Source of the DNA: Thermodesulfobacteriales bacterium
GTDB lineage: Bacteria; Desulfobacterota; Thermodesulfobacteria; Thermodesulfobacteriales; Thermodesulfatatoraceae
Length of the DNA stretch: 40,591 nucleotides
Assembly (NCBI GenBank): GCA_026986115.1
Contig: JALSPG010000067.1
Coordinates: forward strand, 1-40,591
Direction: 5' to 3'
The position numbers and the translations under genes are program-made. The first letter of the stretch is position 1; every line of letters starts with the position of its first letter. Below the pieces are notes generated by a model that was given only the letters and a program-made list of their open reading frames with translations, was not told the origin of the DNA and ran no database searches. Positions 5,475 to 13,303 of the stretch are shown here, piece by piece.

Positions 5475-7164
5475 AGAGGTTGCCCGGCGCATCAAAGAGG
5501 TGGCCAATATCGTAGATATCATCGGGGAGCATATTTCTTTAAGACGCAGTGGGCGCAACTATTTGGGTCTTTGCCCTTTTCACGCTGATAAAAAACCCTC
5601 CTTTACGGTAAGTGAGGAGCGTCAAATTTTTCATTGTTTTGGCTGCGGGGTAGGGGGCGATGTCATTACCTTCTACATGAAGTTTCATAATCTTGATTTT
5701 GCCGAGGCGGTAAAAGAGCTTGCCAGGCGGTTTGATATCCCTATTTCATCGTCTCTGCCTGATCGCGAACTTAGTGGAAAAAGAGAGGTCCTTTTTGAAA
5801 TCAACGAAAAAGCCAGACGTTTTTTTGAACATCTTCTCTGGGCCTCAGAAGCCGGGAAGATTGGCCGGGAGTATCTTAACGAGCGAGGTCTTTCCGAAAA
5901 GACAGCCCGTCTTTTCGGCTTAGGATATGCTCCCGATTCTTACGATAGTCTGGTTTCCCATTTGCGTCTGGCCGGGGTAGATCTTTCCCTTGCGGAGGAA
6001 GCTGGTCTTTTAGTGCGTCGAGAAGATGGTAGTTTTTACGATCGTTTTCGCCAGAGGCTCATCTTTCCTATTTGGGATAGCTCTGGGAGAGTGGCAGGCT
6101 TTGGAGGGCGGGTTATCGGTCCAGGAGAACCGAAGTATCTCAACACTCCAGAGACTTTGGTTTATCACAAGAGTGCTATCCTCTACGGCTTTTCTCATAC
6201 CAAAGCCGCTATCAAAGAAGCAGGGTTTGGTTTTGTGGTGGAGGGTTATCTCGATCTCCTTTCCCTTTACGAATCTGGTGTAAAAGAAAGTGTAGCCACT
6301 TTGGGTACTGCTCTTACATCACAACACGTTCGTCTTTTAAAAGGGCTTCAGGCAGAGTGGTTTTTGGTCTTCGACGCGGATGAGGCAGGCTTTAAGGCTG
6401 CCATGCGAGCGGCTCCTGTTTTTTTCAATGCTGGTCTCTTTCCCAAGGTCATATTGCTTCCTGCAGGGCATGATCCAGATAGTTTCGTAAGGAAATATGG
6501 CCCACGGGCCTTTTACACCCTCAAAGAGGAAGCCGAAGAGGTTTTTGATTTTATGATTCGTTATTTGGCGGCCAAGTTTCCTCAGAGCCTTGAGGGACGT
6601 TTGGCCCTTTTTAAAGAACTTCAACCAGTGCTCGAGTCTATTAAAGATCCGGTACTTTTTGAACTCAAGCTCAGCCAAGTGGCAGAAAGACTTCAGGTTT
6701 CAGAATCTGCTCTTCGCCGAAGTCTCAAATTTTCTGACGGAAATTCCGGCCCCAAGAGAGTTGTTCCTTATTCTGAAAGGGCTCTCGTGGAATTTGTTGT
6801 CCATTATCCTCGGTATCTAGAAGAACTTTGGGATGTCGGGCTCTTAGAGGTTGTTAAGGATTCCCGTCTGCGAGCCCTTTTGGAGATCCTCAAGGCCTCA
6901 CGGGATACTTTGCCAGCTGATCTGGCTCTTGAAGATTTAGAGCTTCAGGCTCTTCTAAGTGAAATCCTCTTGTCTTCTCCGCCATTTGAAGGAGAACCAC
7001 CCGAGAAAGTAGCGGTAGAGATTAAGGTTTGGCTTATACGGCGCCAGAGAAAGGCCCGGTTAGAAAGCCTTCTTAAAGCTATTAAAGAGGCCGAGGCCTC
7101 TGGCCGAGAGGAAGAGGCCTTAAGGCTTCTTAAAGAATATCAACAGCTTCGGTGTCAATTTTAA
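5464..7164 (+). CDS. dnaG: DNA primase DnaG
   Basis: Synthesises RNA primers at the replication fork. The 566-residue protein has the CHC2 zinc finger C37-x2-H40...C58-x2-C61 (LCPFH, then HCFGCG), the DnaG core with RFRQRLIFPIWDSSGRVAGFGGR, and a TOPRIM domain whose acidic residues are seen in VVEGYLDL (about residue 260) and FDADEAG (about 306). A C-terminal helicase-binding-type helical region follows. The start is GTG at 5464, inside the end of mutS2, with AAGGGGGAAG ahead. rpoD follows after about 30 bp, the classic dnaG-rpoD order. Confidence 0.96.
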   Translation: MGLKEVARRIKEVANIVDIIGEHISLRRSGRNYLGLCPFHADKKPSFTVSEERQIFHCFGCGVGGDVITFYMKFHNLDFAEAVKELARRFDIPISSSLPDRELSGKREVLFEINEKARRFFEHLLWASEAGKIGREYLNERGLSEKTARLFGLGYAPDSYDSLVSHLRLAGVDLSLAEEAGLLVRREDGSFYDRFRQRLIFPIWDSSGRVAGFGGRVIGPGEPKYLNTPETLVYHKSAILYGFSHTKAAIKEAGFGFVVEGYLDLLSLYESGVKESVATLGTALTSQHVRLLKGLQAEWFLVFDADEAGFKAAMRAAPVFFNAGLFPKVILLPAGHDPDSFVRKYGPRAFYTLKEEAEEVFDFMIRYLAAKFPQSLEGRLALFKELQPVLESIKDPVLFELKLSQVAERLQVSESALRRSLKFSDGNSGPKRVVPYSERALVEFVVHYPRYLEELWDVGLLEVVKDSRLRALLEILKASRDTLPADLALEDLELQALLSEILLSSPPFEGEPPEKVAVEIKVWLIRRQRKARLESLLKAIKEAEASGREEEALRLLKEYQQLRCQF

Positions 7165-7194: not shown

Positions 7195-8874
7195 ATGGCA
7201 GACCTCACCAAAGAATTGGCCGGCCTTGGGGGTTTTGAGGAGGGGCGTCGGGCAAAACAAATTTCCATCATTAAACCTTTGGCAGCCCAACTCGAAGAGG
7301 TAGCAGACCTTGTAGAAAATCTAGATGTAAAGGTGGTTCCGGAAGAATCTGTGACAGAAGAACTCTCCGAAGAAGTGATCGAAGAAATTTCCCGTTCAGA
7401 TCCGGTAAAGATTTACCTTAAGGAAATGGGGCAAGCACGGCTTCTTTCCCGCGAAGAAGAAGTAGAAGTGGCCAAAATTATAGAAGAAGGAGAGCATCAA
7501 GCATTAAGGGCTGCGATTAAGGCTCGAGGCACGGTGGAAGAACTCTTAAATATTTGTGAAGAGTTTTTTGCCGGAAGGCTTAAAGCCAGGGAGATTGTAA
7601 GGGATCTTGATGATTATCTGATGGAAGAGGAAGAAGCGGTTGAAGAGCGCAATCAAGGGCTTAAAGGTTTATTGCTTGAGATCAGGAGTCTGGCTAGAGA
7701 GCTTCTCTCTTTAGAAGAAAAAGTTTCCAAACTTGAGGAGAAAAAGGCCCGTCTTCGTATTCGCCAACGGATTAACAAGCTTCGAGAAGAGGTCTTATCG
7801 CGCTTGCTTCAAGTGCGTCTTGACAAACGTTGTTTGGAGCGACTTACGGCACCCGTCCTCAAGGCCTTCGAGGAGGTCCGCAAAGCCCACAGAGAGCTCA
7901 GGGCCTGTACGCAGGAGTCGGGGCATTCTCTTGCTAGGCTTACAGCCTATTTTTCCCGAACTAATGGCCATTTTTCTGAGATAGAAAAGGCAGCAGAAAG
8001 GCTTGGACTAAACATTGATCAATTTCTTAATCTGCGGGCCCGCTATCTTTTGGCCAAAAAGGCCCTTAAGGCTGCAGAAGAAAGATCGGGACTTCCGGTC
8101 AAAAAACTCGAAAATGTAGCCAAAGAAGTTGAGATTGGGGTCTTTCGGGCCAAACGAGCTAAAGAAGAACTCGTTAAGGCCAATTTGCGTTTGGTAGTTT
8201 CGATTGCCAAAAAGTATACCGGCCGGGGGCTTCAATTTTTGGATCTTATTCAAGAAGGAAATATTGGTCTCATGAAGGCCGTTGAAAAATTTGATTATCG
8301 CCGCGGTTATAAATTTAGTACTTATGCTACCTGGTGGATTCGCCAGGCCATCACACGGGCTATTGCAGATCAGGCCCGTACTATCCGCATTCCGGTCCAC
8401 ATGATCGAAACCATTAATAAGTTGGTTCGTGTTTCGCTTCAGATTTACCAAGAAACTGGTCAAGAGCCCTCACCAGAAGAAATTGCGGCACGAATGGATC
8501 TGCCGGTAGAGAAGGTGCGCAAGATCCTAAAGATCGCCAAAGAGCCCATTTCACTTGAAACCCCGGTGGGGGAAGACGAAGATTCCCATCTTGGAGATTT
8601 TATCGAAGACCCCCGGGTGCCAGCTCCAGACCAAGTGGCAGTTTCTTTAAGTTTAGTAGAACAAACCAGACGTGTTTTGGCTACCCTTACTCCACGAGAA
8701 GAAAAGGTCTTGCGGATGCGCTTTGGAATTGGAGAAAGGGGAGAACACACACTTGAAGAGGTGGGGCGAGAATTTAAAGTTACGAGAGAAAGAATTCGTC
8801 AGATAGAAGCTAAGGCCCTTCGAAAACTTCGCCATCCCAGTCGGAGCCGTAAGCTTAGGTGTTTTATCAAATAA
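7195..8874 (+). CDS. rpoD: RNA polymerase sigma factor RpoD (primary sigma-70)
   Basis: A 559-residue primary sigma factor. Region 1.2 is [22 protein letters not shown] (split view), followed by a long non-conserved helical insert. Region 2 is intact with [20 protein letters not shown] and [16 protein letters not shown], region 3 carries [12 protein letters not shown], and region 4.2 is [20 protein letters not shown], the helix-turn-helix for the -35 box. A strong GGAGGGG site precedes the ATG. The consensus-like promoters seen ahead of rpsU and the aminotransferase gene fit recognition by such a factor. It is the last gene of the cluster and is followed by a 13-bp hairpin. Confidence 0.97.
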
Positions 8875-8876
8875 AA

Positions 8877-8905
8877 GTATAAAGGCGGGAAGCCCGCCTT
8901 TATAC
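8877..8905 (+). terminator. Hairpin terminator after rpoD
   Basis: GTATAAAGGCGGG-aag-CCCGCCTTTATAC is a perfect 13-bp stem with a 3-nt loop just after the rpoD stop. There is no long T run after the stem, so it may act as an RNA 3'-end stabiliser as well as, or instead of, a classic rho-independent terminator. Confidence 0.75.
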
Positions 8906-8926
8906 TGGGGGATATAGAATGTCAGA

Positions 8927-8975
8927 TTAGGATCCGTTCCCATTTTTCGGAACAAAAAATGAGAACGGATCCTAA
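8927..8975. repeat. Palindromic repeat element, copy 1 (intact arms)
   Basis: Two 21-nt arms, beginning TTAGGATCCGTTCCC (8927-8947) and ending GAACGGATCCTAA (8955-8975), match at 20 of 21 positions around a loop of about 7 nt. A weaker similarity continues outwards and includes TGTCGACA at 8981-8988. A diverged copy is found at 11792-11850. This may be a REP- or MITE-like element, or two transposon ends joined head to head. It lies between rpoD and a small membrane-protein gene. Confidence 0.7.
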
Positions 8976-8992
8976 TATACTGTCGACAAAAA

Positions 8993-9286
8993 ATGCTCCA
9001 AAGTAATATATTAAAAACCAAAAAGATGTTAGGAATGTTAGGAATGTTATTTCTAACGTTTATATGGTTCTTGGGATTTACAGGTCCCGTCTGGGCTGGC
9101 GAAGAAAAGGGGACAAGTTTTGGTTTAATAAGTGGGTTGTTACTCCTCGTCTTGCTCTTTTCTACAGCAGGCATTGGTTTTGCGATGCTTAGGGGCAAGG
9201 CTACCCGTAGACGCCATCATCTTTTGGCATATAGCACCCTTCTTTTGGCCTTGATACATGCTTTTTATAATATCTTTTTCCATTAA
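8993..9286 (+). CDS. Small exported membrane protein, function unknown
   Basis: An ORF of 97 residues with a plausible signal peptide: basic KTKK, a hydrophobic stretch, then GPVWA before GEEKG as a likely cleavage site. After it come two predicted membrane helices, the second preceded by ATRRRHHLLAY. His residues at both ends of the last helix (RRRHHL and IHAFYNIFFH) could ligate heme or metal, but this is only a suggestion. Several ATG codons follow the first one (at 9026, 9035 and 9044) and there is no strong ribosome site, so the start is uncertain; 8993 is kept because it includes the basic signal-peptide head. It lies alone between the palindromic repeat and the aminotransferase promoter. 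I do not recognise the family. Confidence 0.55.
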   Translation: MLQSNILKTKKMLGMLGMLFLTFIWFLGFTGPVWAGEEKGTSFGLISGLLLLVLLFSTAGIGFAMLRGKATRRRHHLLAYSTLLLALIHAFYNIFFH

Positions 9287-9364
9287 TTAATCTTTGTTTT
9301 TGATAATATAATTTCTTATTTGCTTAATAAGATAAACTTCCCGGAATTCTAAGGAAATGCCCCA

Positions 9365-9393
9365 TTGACACCAGCCAGAAGGAGGGGCATTAT
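9365..9393 (+). promoter_or_regulatory. Sigma-70-type promoter for the aminotransferase gene
   Basis: TTGACA at 9365-9370 and CATTAT at 9388-9393 have a 17-bp spacer. The start codon is about 35 bp downstream. Together with the rpsU promoter this is one of the two clearest promoters in the window. Confidence 0.6.
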
Positions 9394-9427
9394 CATAGTT
9401 TGACATTATTTAAGGTGAGTGGAGGAA

Positions 9428-10651
9428 ATGAGAGGAAGTTTTGAGCCGATTAAGCCGGCTAAACGTACAGAAAATATTGAGTACGCCGTAAGAGACATTG
9501 TTTTGGTAGCGGAGGAGGCCCGCAAGAAAGGAAAGGAGCTTCTTTTTTTAAATATTGGAGACCCAATCCAATATGATTTCCGCACCCCAGCCCCTTTAGT
9601 AGAGGCCACTTACCAAGCCATGTGTGAGAATCTTACAGGTTATTCAGCTTCAGAAGGAGTAGATGAAGCTATTTGTGCCATTCGCAAGGAAGCCAGACAG
9701 AAGGGCATTGAGCCTGCGGATATTTTTATCACCACTGGGGCCAGTGAAGCCATTGATTTTACCCTTACGGCTTTGGTTAATGAGGGAGAAAATGTTCTTG
9801 TTCCTTACCCAGGCTATCCCCTCTATACGGCTATTTTGGCCAAACTGGGGGCGGAGCCCAATCCCTACTACCTTGATGAAGAAAATGCTTGGCAGCCCGA
9901 TTTGGATGATATTGCATCCAAAGTAAACGAAAAGACCCGTGCTATTGTTATCATTAACCCTAACAATCCTACTGGGGCTGTTTATTCGGAAGAGACCTTA
10001 CGCGGTATCATAGAGATTGCCAAAAAACACCAACTTGTCATTTTATCGGATGAAATTTATGACAAACTGGTATTTGACGGAAAAAAGCACATTTCCATCG
10101 CCTCTTTAGACCCAGAAGTCCCGATGGTTACCTTTAACGGCCTTTCCAAATGTTATTTAGCCCCGGGTTTTCGTATTGGCTGGGGAATAGTCTCTGGCCC
10201 TTGGGAAGTGGTAAGAGATTTTGTAGAGGCCATTCATAAGCTGGCTCGTGCGCGCCTTTCTACTAGTCATCCTAAGCAATATGCTATTCCTGTGGCCTTA
10301 AACGGTAACCAAAGCCATCTTCAGGAGGTCTTGGAAAAACTTGAACGCCGGCGAGATCTTACCGTAGAGATGTTGAATGATATTCCTGGTATATCTTGTG
10401 TGAAGCCGGAAGGGGCTTTCTATGCCTTCCCTAAAATTGATATTCCCGGTGTTTCGGATCGCGATTTTGTAAAAGAACTCATTGCTGAGACTGGAGTGGT
10501 AGTTGTCCACGGGAGCGGTTTTGGCCAAAAGCCCGGGACAGCTCACTTTCGGGTGGTATTTTTGCCTCCTGAAGATGTTTTAGAACGTGCTTACGAACGG
10601 ATAAAAAAATTCATGAAAGGCTATCTGTCTCGCAAAGGGCTTGGAGCTTAA
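9428..10651 (+). CDS. Class I/II pyridoxal-phosphate aminotransferase, AlaA-like
   Basis: A fold-type I aminotransferase of about 407 residues. Typical features are FLNIGDPIQYDF near the N-terminus, ITTGASEAIDFTL, VPYPGYPLY, the INPNNPTGAVYS substrate/cofactor motif, LSDEIYDKLVFDG with the Asp that contacts the pyridine ring, and FNGLSKCYLAPGFRIGW with the Schiff-base Lys and phosphate-binding Arg. The sequence resembles alanine/glutamate aminotransferases (AlaA/YfbQ type) more than the second aminotransferase of this window. The ATG at 9428 is preferred because AAGGTGA lies 9 nt upstream; a GTG at 9419 is in frame. It has its own promoter. The exact amino donor and acceptor are inferred. Confidence 0.88.
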   Translation: MRGSFEPIKPAKRTENIEYAVRDIVLVAEEARKKGKELLFLNIGDPIQYDFRTPAPLVEATYQAMCENLTGYSASEGVDEAICAIRKEARQKGIEPADIFITTGASEAIDFTLTALVNEGENVLVPYPGYPLYTAILAKLGAEPNPYYLDEENAWQPDLDDIASKVNEKTRAIVIINPNNPTGAVYSEETLRGIIEIAKKHQLVILSDEIYDKLVFDGKKHISIASLDPEVPMVTFNGLSKCYLAPGFRIGWGIVSGPWEVVRDFVEAIHKLARARLSTSHPKQYAIPVALNGNQSHLQEVLEKLERRRDLTVEMLNDIPGISCVKPEGAFYAFPKIDIPGVSDRDFVKELIAETGVVVVHGSGFGQKPGTAHFRVVFLPPEDVLERAYERIKKFMKGYLSRKGLGA

Positions 10652-10718
10652 GGCCGCTCCAAATGTAAACTTCTGTGAGCTTTACTTTCCGATTTAGAGG
10701 ATTCTGGAGGCCCTAATC

Positions 10719-11687
10719 ATGCAAGGGTCCTTAAAGGAAAAATATTTTGCTTCCCTTCTAGGCTTAGCAATAGGGGATGCTTTGGGTTTTCCTTTTGAAG
10801 GATTAAGGCTTGAAGATTTAATTGAGATAAATCTTTGTTATTTTCAGCGTGGGAAATTTCCTCCTGGTACTTGGTCTGATGATACTTCTCTAACTTTTCT
10901 TACGGTAGAAAGTCTTTTAGTCTGCCAAGGACTTAATCTTAGGGATCTTGCTTTTCGTTTTTGGCGCTGGTTAAAGGAAGGATATTTTACGCCTTTTGGA
11001 GAGGCTATCGGGATAGGAAAGGCTACTAGAAAGGCTCTTTTGCGTTTTGCAAGTGGTATCCTTCCGGAACATGCTGGAGGAAGAGGGGAAAGAGATTGTG
11101 GAAATGGCAGTCTTATGCGTCTTCTTCCAATAGTTTTATGGTATGGAGACGCCTCCGAAAAGACGTTACTAGCCCGGGTTTGGGAGGCTTCTTCCCTCAC
11201 TCATGCCCATCCGCGGGTGTTTCTGGCCTGTGGACTTTATGCCCTTCTCCTCCAGAGGTTTATCCTCGGCCAAAAACTTACGGAAGCTCTCCTTTATGTA
11301 AGGGCGCAAGGTCTTAGCCTCTGCAAAGAAAATCGTCTTTTTTCGCGAGAGGCATTACATTTTACCCCTCTTTGGGATGGTTCATTGTTTTCTCTTCCTG
11401 TAGAGGCGCTTCAAACTTCAGGTTATGTGGTTCATACCCTTTTAGCCGCTTTCGGGATTCTTTTTCACACAAATAGCTTTAAAGAAGCCGTAAAACTTGC
11501 AGTACGTTTGGGGGGCGATACTGATACTACGGCAGCCATAGCAGGGGCGGCGGCTGGTCTTTATTATGGTCTCGCAGAGATTCCTCTACCTTGGCTAGAC
11601 GGATTGGTAAAAGGGAGGAAGCTCCGGGAGCTGGCTAATCAATTTGTGACCGAAGTTTTAGAGCAGAAAAATAAAGAGAGAATCTAG
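10719..11687 (+). CDS. ADP-ribosylglycohydrolase family protein
   Basis: A 322-residue protein of the DraG/ARH fold, which removes ADP-ribose from proteins or small molecules using two metal ions. The N-terminus has SLLGLAIGDALGFPFEG, the metal-binding WSDDTSLTFLTVESLL follows, and the C-terminal part has VRLGGDTDTTAAIAGAAAG, the other half of the metal site. GNGSLMRLLPI in the middle is also typical. A GGAGG site lies 8 nt before the ATG. No ADP-ribosyltransferase or nitrogenase gene is nearby, so the target is unknown. Confidence 0.9.
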   Translation: MQGSLKEKYFASLLGLAIGDALGFPFEGLRLEDLIEINLCYFQRGKFPPGTWSDDTSLTFLTVESLLVCQGLNLRDLAFRFWRWLKEGYFTPFGEAIGIGKATRKALLRFASGILPEHAGGRGERDCGNGSLMRLLPIVLWYGDASEKTLLARVWEASSLTHAHPRVFLACGLYALLLQRFILGQKLTEALLYVRAQGLSLCKENRLFSREALHFTPLWDGSLFSLPVEALQTSGYVVHTLLAAFGILFHTNSFKEAVKLAVRLGGDTDTTAAIAGAAAGLYYGLAEIPLPWLDGLVKGRKLRELANQFVTEVLEQKNKERI

Positions 11688-11791
11688 CTTCTTTGATTTC
11701 CAATAATTTTGAGAATTTGTTCATTTTAAATTTAAACGAAAAAGAAGACTACAATTTTTTTATCACTGGAGCACTTTTGGCGAGATACTCT

Positions 11792-11850
11792 TTGGGATCC
11801 ATCCTGTTTTTTCGCCGAAAAATAGGAACGGATTCTTTACGATGTCGGCG
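11792..11850. repeat. Palindromic repeat element, copy 2 (diverged)
   Basis: TTGGGATCCATCCTG...AGGAACGGATTCTTTACG aligns along its length with the element at 8927-8988, including the central T and A runs and a right flank ATGTCGGCG equivalent to CTGTCGACA. The inverted arms still pair at about two thirds of positions. The 284-bp gap holding it has no convincing gene; a 69-codon frame beginning at 11693 has no ribosome site or family resemblance. Confidence 0.55.
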
Positions 11851-11971
11851 TTTAATGTCCCCAATATTAAAACTCTTTTTGTTTTTTGTCGTTTTAGGAT
11901 AAAATGAATTTAAAAGCTTTATAAGCTGAAACCGAGCTTCGTAAGATCTCTAAAGCTTGTCGTGGGGAAGT

Positions 11972-12499
11972 ATGGATCTTAAAGAAGCCGTAAGGGCTGC
12001 TCTTAAAGAGCTTGTTTTGCCGAAGCTTGAAGATATTCGCAAAGAAAGTTATGAGCTGCGCAGCCAGATGGAGATCACCAACAAGCGGCTCGACGACATA
12101 AATCGCCATCTGGTAGATCAGAGCCGTCGTATTGATGAAACTAACAAACGTATTGACGAAGTACGTGCAGAGCTTACGAACCAAATTAGGGAAGTACGGG
12201 CAGAATTTACCGCTCAGATCAGGGAGGTGCGAGCAGAGCTTACCGGTCGAATCAGCGAATTTCGGGCAGAACTTACCGATCAGATCAGTGATGTACGGGC
12301 AGAGCTTACCAATCAGATTGGTGAGGTGCGAGCAGAGCTTGCCGGTCGGATAGACGGGCTTAATACACGAGTGGATCAACTTACCTTCCAGGTAGGCAAA
12401 CTTGCTCAAGAGATTGAGAGAATGAGACAGAACCGAGAAGTTACAGCTGATCTTTTGAGTCGCATTCAACGCCTTGAGAAAAGAGTCATTGGAGAATAA
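11972..12499 (+). CDS. Coiled-coil protein with 11-residue repeats, function unknown
   Basis: A 175-residue, almost wholly helical, charged protein. After a short head (MDLKEAVRAALKELVLPKL) and a first coil, six tandem 11-residue units of the form (E/D)(V/F)RAE(L/F)TxQI(R/S/G) run from 12158 to about 12355, then a heptad-like tail. Eleven-residue periodicity indicates a right-handed or straight coil rather than a regular left-handed one. No signal peptide, membrane helix or enzyme motif is visible. A GGGGAAGT site precedes the ATG at 11972; the frame reaches back to 11957. The style is like the coiled-coil part of the gene at the left edge, but without a nuclease-like domain. Confidence 0.7.
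   Translation: MDLKEAVRAALKELVLPKLEDIRKESYELRSQMEITNKRLDDINRHLVDQSRRIDETNKRIDEVRAELTNQIREVRAEFTAQIREVRAELTGRISEFRAELTDQISDVRAELTNQIGEVRAELAGRIDGLNTRVDQLTFQVGKLAQEIERMRQNREVTADLLSRIQRLEKRVIGE
12158..12355 (+). repeat. 33-bp tandem repeats encoding hendecads
   Basis: Six units with cores such as GTACGGGCAGAGCTTACC recur every 33 bp and encode EVRAELTNQIR and its variants. The similarity at DNA level suggests that unit number can vary between strains. Confidence 0.8.
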
Positions 12500-12504
12500 G
12501 AACC

Positions 12505-13212
12505 CTAAATTTTTGAGGCTTGATAGATACTTACCACCCCAAAGGTAAGATTTTCAAAATTTACCTCTCGAAAGCCAGCGGCTTCTAAGCTGTAGCAGAT
12601 TTCCCTTGGCGAGGGAAAGCTTTCTATAGAACGGGCCAAGTATTCGTAGGCTTCACGGTCGCCAGTAAGGCTGCCGCCTAAAAGGGGCATGAAATGAAAG
12701 AGATAAAAGCGATAAAGAGAGGCGAAGATAGGCGTTTTGGGACGAGAAAATTCGAGAATTACAAATTTTCCTCCGGGTTTTAAGACTCGAAAAACCTCAG
12801 TAAAACACCTATCAGGATGGGGAAGATTTCTGATTCCAAAGGCCACGGTGACAGCAGAGAAAATTTCCTTCGGGAAGGGGAGATTTTCTGCATCTCCTTG
12901 GACAAGAAAGATAAAGCTGGTAGCGGGGTGGCTGGCCAGACGAAATTTTCCGTAGGCGAGCATTTCTAAGGTTATGTCAAGCGCTATTACTGGGCGCGGG
13001 CGTTGCCTTACAATTTCTTTGGCAAGGGTTAGGGTTCCGGCACAGAGATCGAGGATAGGGCCGGTATAAGAACCAATTTTTTGGACCAGGCGATAACGCC
13101 ACCAGTGATCTAATCCGAAACTTCCCAAGGTATTTACGAGATCATATCTTCTTGTTACTCGTGAAAATTTCTGACGGACAAATCTCTTCTTTTGAGAAAG
13201 CTCTGGTAGCAT
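12505..13212 (-). CDS. menG: UbiE/MenG-type quinone methyltransferase
   Basis: A SAM-dependent C-methyltransferase of the UbiE/COQ5 family, likely methylating demethylmenaquinone in menaquinone synthesis. Seen are KFSRVTRRYDLVNTLGSFG (the family's FDxxAxxYDxMN-like start), ILDLCAGTLTLAKEI (SAM loop), DAENLPFPKEIFSAVTVAFG (the family's fD.vt.aFGlRN motif, continuing IRNLPHPD) and VLKPGGKFVILEFSRP. About 235 residues from the ATG at 13212, normal for the family. The frame runs up to 13284 but that extension is not family-like and neither start has a clear ribosome site. It is divergent from the antiporter gene. A menaquinone role fits the anaerobic respiration genes here. Confidence 0.85.
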   Translation of the reverse strand: MLPELSQKKRFVRQKFSRVTRRYDLVNTLGSFGLDHWWRYRLVQKIGSYTGPILDLCAGTLTLAKEIVRQRPRPVIALDITLEMLAYGKFRLASHPATSFIFLVQGDAENLPFPKEIFSAVTVAFGIRNLPHPDRCFTEVFRVLKPGGKFVILEFSRPKTPIFASLYRFYLFHFMPLLGGSLTGDREAYEYLARSIESFPSPREICYSLEAAGFREVNFENLTFGVVSIYQASKI

Positions 13213-13303
13213 GGAGGCAAAACTAGTAAGCAAACACGCAGCTGGCAAGACGAGACCTTTGCAAAAATAAATCTCGGCTATCATCTTGAAGGAGGTCTAA
13301 AGA

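Follow-up and report, generated by a model that had tools for sequence, protein, structure and literature searches.

Probable REP-derived hairpins carried by two kinds of miniature transposon in the Thermodesulfobacteriales

REP-associated tyrosine transposases (RAYT) act on repetitive extragenic palindromic (REP) sequences: TnpA_REP cuts and religates single-stranded REPs and is the probable agent of their amplification, and the central deletion of an inverted REP dimer can yield double-foot REPs (PMC6006769). REP/RAYT systems, REPs inside RAYT genes (subclass 2.4), REP dimers in other palindromes, and miniature inverted-repeat transposable elements (MITEs) have already been described (PMC6006769, PMC3733652, PMC2817692, PMC3116915), and the accessible part of the RepRanger paper gives repeat counts for Thermodesulfatator atlanticus and no RAYT (PMC12306157). 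Here we report the analysis of two palindromic repeats, copy 1 and copy 2, in a 40,591-nt stretch of DNA (the window) from a Thermodesulfobacteriales bacterium (contig JALSPG010000067.1). We consider it likely that these features are orphaned REP-derived hairpins carried by miniature transposons, and that the cognate RAYT survives in sister genomes. No report of this element family was found in the literature searched on Thermodesulfatator repeats, on RAYT/REPIN in Thermodesulfobacteria, and on hybrid REP/MITE elements, subscription papers lying outside that search.

The first-pass annotation of the window described two related palindromic repeats, one intact and one diverged, and this description holds. 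Copy 1 has 21-nt arms (8927-8947 and 8955-8975) that agree at 20 of 21 positions. Its 43-nt core (8930-8972), delimited by genome matches, arm comparison, and folding, contains two inverted half-sites of the REP type, GGATCCGTTCCYATTTTT; the DNA folding energy of this core is -14.1 kcal/mol, compared with a mean of -4.76 for its 200 shuffles (z -5.2), none of which equaled it. The core of copy 2 (11795-11835), located by matches, arm comparison, and alignment, folds no better than its shuffles (z 0.16, 103 of 200 equal), so copy 2 is a decayed copy; its alignment with copy 1 and with other genomes' elements still spans its full length.

Copies of the core were counted in the window's own genome (G000; 1.83 Mb, 137 contigs, 96.8% complete) and in those of relatives (other G-numbers; L-numbers denote loci taken from relatives' genomes). 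With the 43 bp of copy 1 (8930-8972) as query, matches at E<=0.001 occupy 15 distinct places in G000 (26 matches, most palindromes matching on both strands), and copy 2 as query recovered itself and two further places, its identity to other genomic copies being 77-88%. A search for the centre pattern with up to two mismatches in 11 genomes (G000-G010) yielded 13 matches in G000, 29 in G002, 139 in G004, and 40 in G008, with no match to the reversed control pattern in any of these four; there were 3 matches in G006, 2 in G007, one each in G005 and G010, and none in G001, G003, and G009. The reversed control gave 0 in 9 of the 11 genomes, 1 in G003, and 2 in G007, and the count for G007 is therefore not above its control. 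A longer query matched 10 of 41 genomes, the own genome included, and an exact core scan of 84,980 species' genomes, which may leave out near relatives of G000, returned 23 stretches in two genomes, both from Thermodesulfobacteriales. In the searches made, the element was found only in heat-loving members of this order. Chance hairpins are ruled out by the copy number in the own genome and its relatives, and the possibility of two unrelated hairpins raised in the first-pass annotation fails on the same genome-wide check (15 places in the own genome, up to 139 in a sister genome). A plasmid or phage origin was likewise rejected, the core being absent from the viral-contig, plasmid, and phage collections, as was a known RNA family, for which the best Rfam result, a single chance-level match, scored 25 bits where the gathering score is 90.

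Copy 1 lies between rpoD and a gene for a small membrane protein. This spacer is without the element in G001 and G002, two relatives that keep the gene order; seven other relatives with readable sequence have a tRNA-like sequence after rpoD (identified by eye), and in one the contig ends there. Because the matching spacer is empty in G001 and G002, copy 1 either arrived in the window's lineage or was lost on more than one occasion, in agreement with the earlier suggestion of a mobile hairpin.

The link to REP systems comes from a close group of RAYT proteins of 213-216 aa, encoded by seven genes in six related genomes. Their identity to the G004 protein is 95% in G002, 74 and 70% in G005, 66% in G023, 63% in G018, and 56% in G001. 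The Y1_Tnp domain (PF01797) exceeds its Pfam cut-off in all six proteins scanned (42-60 bits against 23), the best NCBIfam model is 'REP-associated tyrosine transposase', and a profile match connects the group to TnpA_REP of E. coli (4er8, E 4e-4). The motifs NHVH (59-62) and YIERNP (120-125), characteristic of Y1/HUH enzymes, are invariant in five aligned proteins, and the G018 and G023 proteins have NHFH. Judged by these motifs, a WK/WR motif, and the length of 213 aa, the protein appears to fit no subclass row cleanly in the accessible table of PMC6006769.

Each of these genes is accompanied by palindromes. Upstream of the start codon, 7 of 7 genes have a 25-bp palindrome, AAAAATRGGATC-N-GATCCYATTTTT, or the related GGATCCGTTCCYATTTTT form (that of the second G005 gene is diverged and was seen by eye); all seven have such a palindrome inside the gene at codons 143-151 (about codon 143), beyond the catalytic tyrosine; and six have one at or just after the stop, so that the genes are flanked by REPs. 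In one G005 gene and in those of G001, G018, and G023, the palindrome includes or adjoins the stop codon. The intragenic palindrome of G001 is displaced by one base, and the stretch reads FQKWDLIP, compared with SKNGIGSH or similar in the other RAYT proteins; since this shift changes the reading of a stretch of the same length, conservation at this place seems to concern the DNA more than the peptide. The form of the REP varies with the RAYT, GATCNGATCC in G001 and GATCCGTTCC in G002, G004, and G005, and each form also has dispersed copies. The G001 form is present in 15 genome copies, four of which share a 760-bp stretch at the RAYT gene, where an even spread would give about 0.007, and its REP pairs are 63-97 bp apart. 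Copies of this 25-bp pattern also adjoin RAYT genes in G004 (3 of 8), G002 (2 of 2), and G005 (2 of 6). The 25-bp palindrome at the RAYT loci has the core arm GGATCCGTTCCYATTTTT as its 3' part, one half of the whole, and the REP-like nature proposed for the window repeats is thereby supported. The C/T of CC[CT]AT equals the A/G of AT[AG]G, and this foot would resemble the known GT[AG]G REP foot with one base changed.

A longer RAYT-like protein (about 280-350 aa; for example, at L165, L167, and L169) was observed as well, with 19 matches in G003 and 10 in G007, a high copy number that is unusual for the RAYT family. No close inverted repeats were found at the two such loci checked, L166 (G008) and L167 (G007).

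In several genomes, the flanks of the core carry one of two kinds of terminal inverted repeats, here called wrapper A and wrapper B. Wrapper A has ends GAGACCTTTGCAAAA, forming 15-bp terminal inverted repeats; of its 45 distinct elements, 26 have a length of 130-132 bp. An exact 5-bp target duplication accompanies 13 of the 45 elements (0.41 expected). Wrapper B has ends TTAMTGGGAGCAT and forms an element of about 110 bp. Its set comprises 22 clean elements out of 53 candidate pairs, those with more than four total end mismatches having been dropped, and 14 of the 22 have TA flanks on both sides, against a TA background of 0.084; in the same comparison, the class of wrapper A with core was allowed up to eight mismatches. 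Wrapper A thus shows the terminal inverted repeats and target duplication by which MITEs are recognized, and wrapper B, window copies included, the terminal inverted repeats and TA target.

Both window copies extend beyond the bounds first given to them. They are elements of about 106-109 bp, at 8903-9008 on the minus strand (copy 1) and 11761-11869 on the plus strand (copy 2), and hence in opposite orientations, each running from TA to TA or a decayed form of it; in gapped alignment, both match wrapper-B elements of three relatives (G002, G004, G010) from end to end. An ungapped end test of 16 own-genome copies, with the 5th percentile of shuffles as threshold, found a wrapper-A end on at least one side of 7 copies, a wrapper-B end likewise on 7, and neither on 2; one of the wrapper-A copies, at C18, reaches the threshold for B too, on one side. 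In copy 1, the right wrapper-B end alone passes this test, and the gapped alignment reveals both ends. A flank survey of 55 copies in G004, chosen from listed places with 0-1 mismatches, found a wrapper end within three mismatches in 27 (24 A, 3 B). The proposal in the first-pass annotation that the repeats are joined transposon ends is therefore correct in that the terminal inverted repeats of miniature transposons enclose the hairpin, and incorrect for the hairpin itself, which is not two joined ends.

Variant arrangements were seen at individual loci. A wrapper-A element at L127 (G004) has both halves resembling the right arm, a fold-back form, and at L085, L086, L089, and L096 (G005, G006) wrapper-B left ends are followed by a GTCAT(T/C)GCGA...GATTGCTTC-type repeat in place of the core. 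Several unwrapped cores are embedded in short tandem-like tracts at L043, L116, L125, and L130 (GTGATCAGTGATCAG, GTTGTAGAGG, AAGGGCTAAAGG). A gene-start fragment, MKRKKADKDRTDPW..., stands beside the core in two genomes, at L043 (about 6130-6330) and L009 (about 260-390); at L043 it ends at GGATCCTTG, as if recombination had joined the sequences at GGATCC.

The first alternative to a REP origin is that the hairpin is nothing more than an internal segment of miniature transposons mobilized by DDE transposases, and that it resembles RAYT palindromes through chance insertion beside a RAYT gene. The target duplications of wrappers A and B are indeed typical of DDE transposition, and wrapper-carried cores do adjoin the RAYT gene in G004 and G002. 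However, the RAYT palindromes of G001, G005, G018, and G023 are free of wrappers, with the intragenic one at the same codon, the palindromes change in sequence together with the RAYT, and a plain internal segment would not be expected to recur in two unrelated wrappers; we therefore regard this explanation as unlikely.

About equally improbable is that the 43-bp core moves on its own, as a palindrome that targets GGATCC and duplicates it on insertion. Such insertion would account for the unwrapped cores and for wrappers that lack a full core: wrapper-A elements without the core or with a single GGATCC are present in G004 and G008, and core-less wrapper B in G004, G003 (L100), and G010 (L093), the wrapper A/B examples being L061, L062, L063, L064, L066, and L082. 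But GGATCC is the end of the palindrome, and slippage deletion of the hairpin leaves the same single GGATCC, so these core-less wrappers may be either ancestors or deletion products. Moreover, the junction of the core with each wrapper is constant, which fits joint amplification of the two.

Among 32 wrapper-A elements, likeness is 0.90 in the core stems, 0.68 and 0.75 in the wrapper arms, and 0.93 and 0.88 in the terminal repeats; the core stems are thus not clearly more alike than the terminal repeats. A third idea, that the core is a selected cis element (a structured leader, a transcription or mRNA-stability hairpin, or a protein-binding dyad) spread with transposons as helpful to the host or the element, finds some support in core stems better conserved than the wrapper arms and in the position of copy 1, which has a terminator-like hairpin on one side and a start codon on the other, but it is very unlikely given that copy 2 no longer folds, that close relatives have from 0 to 139 copies, that the site of copy 1 is empty in two of them, and that no Rfam family reaches its threshold.

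For the REP-derived origin that we favor, the following course may be proposed. Two inverted REPs would have fused with loss of the middle, producing the 43-bp hairpin core; the RAYT would nick and join such hairpins as single-stranded DNA, by analogy with the known mechanism of its family. The hairpin would then have entered two miniature transposons, wrappers A and B, and these, with the core inside, would have been multiplied by their own DDE transposases. The copies in G000 are probably immobile, because RAYT is missing there, and would now be decaying.

Several results weigh against this origin. RAYT and PF01797 are absent from G000 (0 matches, with one sub-cut-off match at E 0.057), no RAYT was found in G006 or G010, though both carry core copies, and G008, with its 40 core copies, holds only a longer and distant relative. 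All eight RAYT proteins scanned score 66-70 bits, below the NCBIfam REP_Tyr_transpos equivalog cut-off of 80, and inspection by eye of the foot of the RAYT-locus palindromes showed AT[AG]G where canonical REPs have GT[AG]G (or CGTC). The main amplified form is the 43-bp core and not the 25-bp REP around the RAYT genes, and we infer the step between them. In the G004 survey, 28 of 55 copies have no wrapper end within three mismatches, several of them resembling decayed wrappers by eye. No autonomous transposase was found for wrapper A or B; among the wrapper-A ends listed for the own genome, the only set inspected (by eye), no two were noticed that point inward at the spacing of an insertion sequence.

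A broader and more tentative interpretation, which we hold to be somewhat less likely to be right than wrong, is that of a hybrid across transposon superfamilies. A REP hairpin recognized by an HUH/Y1 enzyme would have been fixed for good at the centre of two mutually unrelated miniature transposons of the DDE type. A single element would then bear the cues for two chemistries of transposition, one that duplicates the target at double-stranded ends and one that nicks and joins single strands at the core, and the RAYT would retain REP sites upstream of its gene, within it, and spanning its end.

In the window, copy 1 is preceded on the plus strand by rpoD (7195-8874; NCBIfam RpoD 612 bits, cut-off 555) and by a G+C-rich terminator-like hairpin, identified by eye, that abuts it (8881-8904, plus strand), with similar hairpins after rpoD in G001 and G002. 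The intact copy does lie directly ahead of the small membrane-protein gene, as first described; this open reading frame (ORF; 8993-9286, plus strand, from the ORF list) has no match in Pfam or NCBIfam. Its first ATG (8993) is supplied by the right arm of copy 1. Because this ATG lies within the element and the G001 and G002 orthologues begin further in, the true start is probably later, at about 9027-9045, and copy 1 could possibly alter the leader or promoter of the gene. Upstream of copy 2 is a gene of the ADP-ribosylglycohydrolase family (10719-11687, plus strand; PF03747, 248 bits). The ORF at 11957-12499 contains repeated coiled-coil units, with low-scoring coiled-coil matches in Pfam and NCBIfam, none above cut-off. 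An isolated, exact wrapper-A end GAGACCTTTGCAAAA (13252-13266) occupies the 5' end of a gene (12505-13284, minus strand) for a ubiE-like methyltransferase, with no partner end seen nearby.

The spread of REPs is still poorly understood, and a clade in which close genomes differ in copy number (0 to 139) and in whether they have the transposase offers natural contrasts. The divergent REP foot and a RAYT gene with its own REP at a fixed codon provide substrates for testing RAYT specificity. If hairpin cores are truly common to two kinds of transposon, REP material can ride classical miniature transposons.

Compared with the known systems, the elements share with REP/REPIN-RAYT (TnpA_REP), or REPtron, the hairpin repeats around a Y1 HUH transposase gene, the match of repeat to transposase, a RAYT in one or two copies, REP pairs, and orphan populations without transposase (PMC6006769, PMC2817692, PMC3116915). 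They differ in the foot, AT[AG]G...C[CT]AT in place of GT[AG]G, and in their main form, a 43-bp fused hairpin within miniature transposons that have their own terminal repeats. Subclass 2.4 of TnpA_Y1 (RAYT group 4), as far as the accessible text of PMC6006769 describes it, has a similarly symmetric hairpin and an in-frame REP inside the gene, but its W motif is WQ (here WK/WR), its Y motif YIxNNP (here YIERNP), and its intragenic REP lies generally between the HuH and Y motifs, whereas here it follows the Y motif. Bacterial MITEs of the IS630/Tc1-mariner type (TA), and those of the IS type with 5-bp duplications, likewise have terminal inverted repeats, no coding capacity, and target duplications; here both kinds share one REP-derived core, with no parent insertion sequence found in the own-genome wrapper-A list just mentioned. 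The REP dimers GTAG-15 of A. variabilis and CGTC-1 of H. neapolitanus are also cases of REP material regularly nested in another, longer palindromic repeat (PMC3733652). According to the accessible part of that source, these have GTAG or CGTC tags and one kind of palindrome per genome, in contrast to the single core with two wrappers and distinct target duplications described here. Novel features of the present system are its AT[AG]G foot, a REP within the RAYT gene that follows the Y motif at a fixed codon, the REP at the stop codon, and one core in two wrappers.

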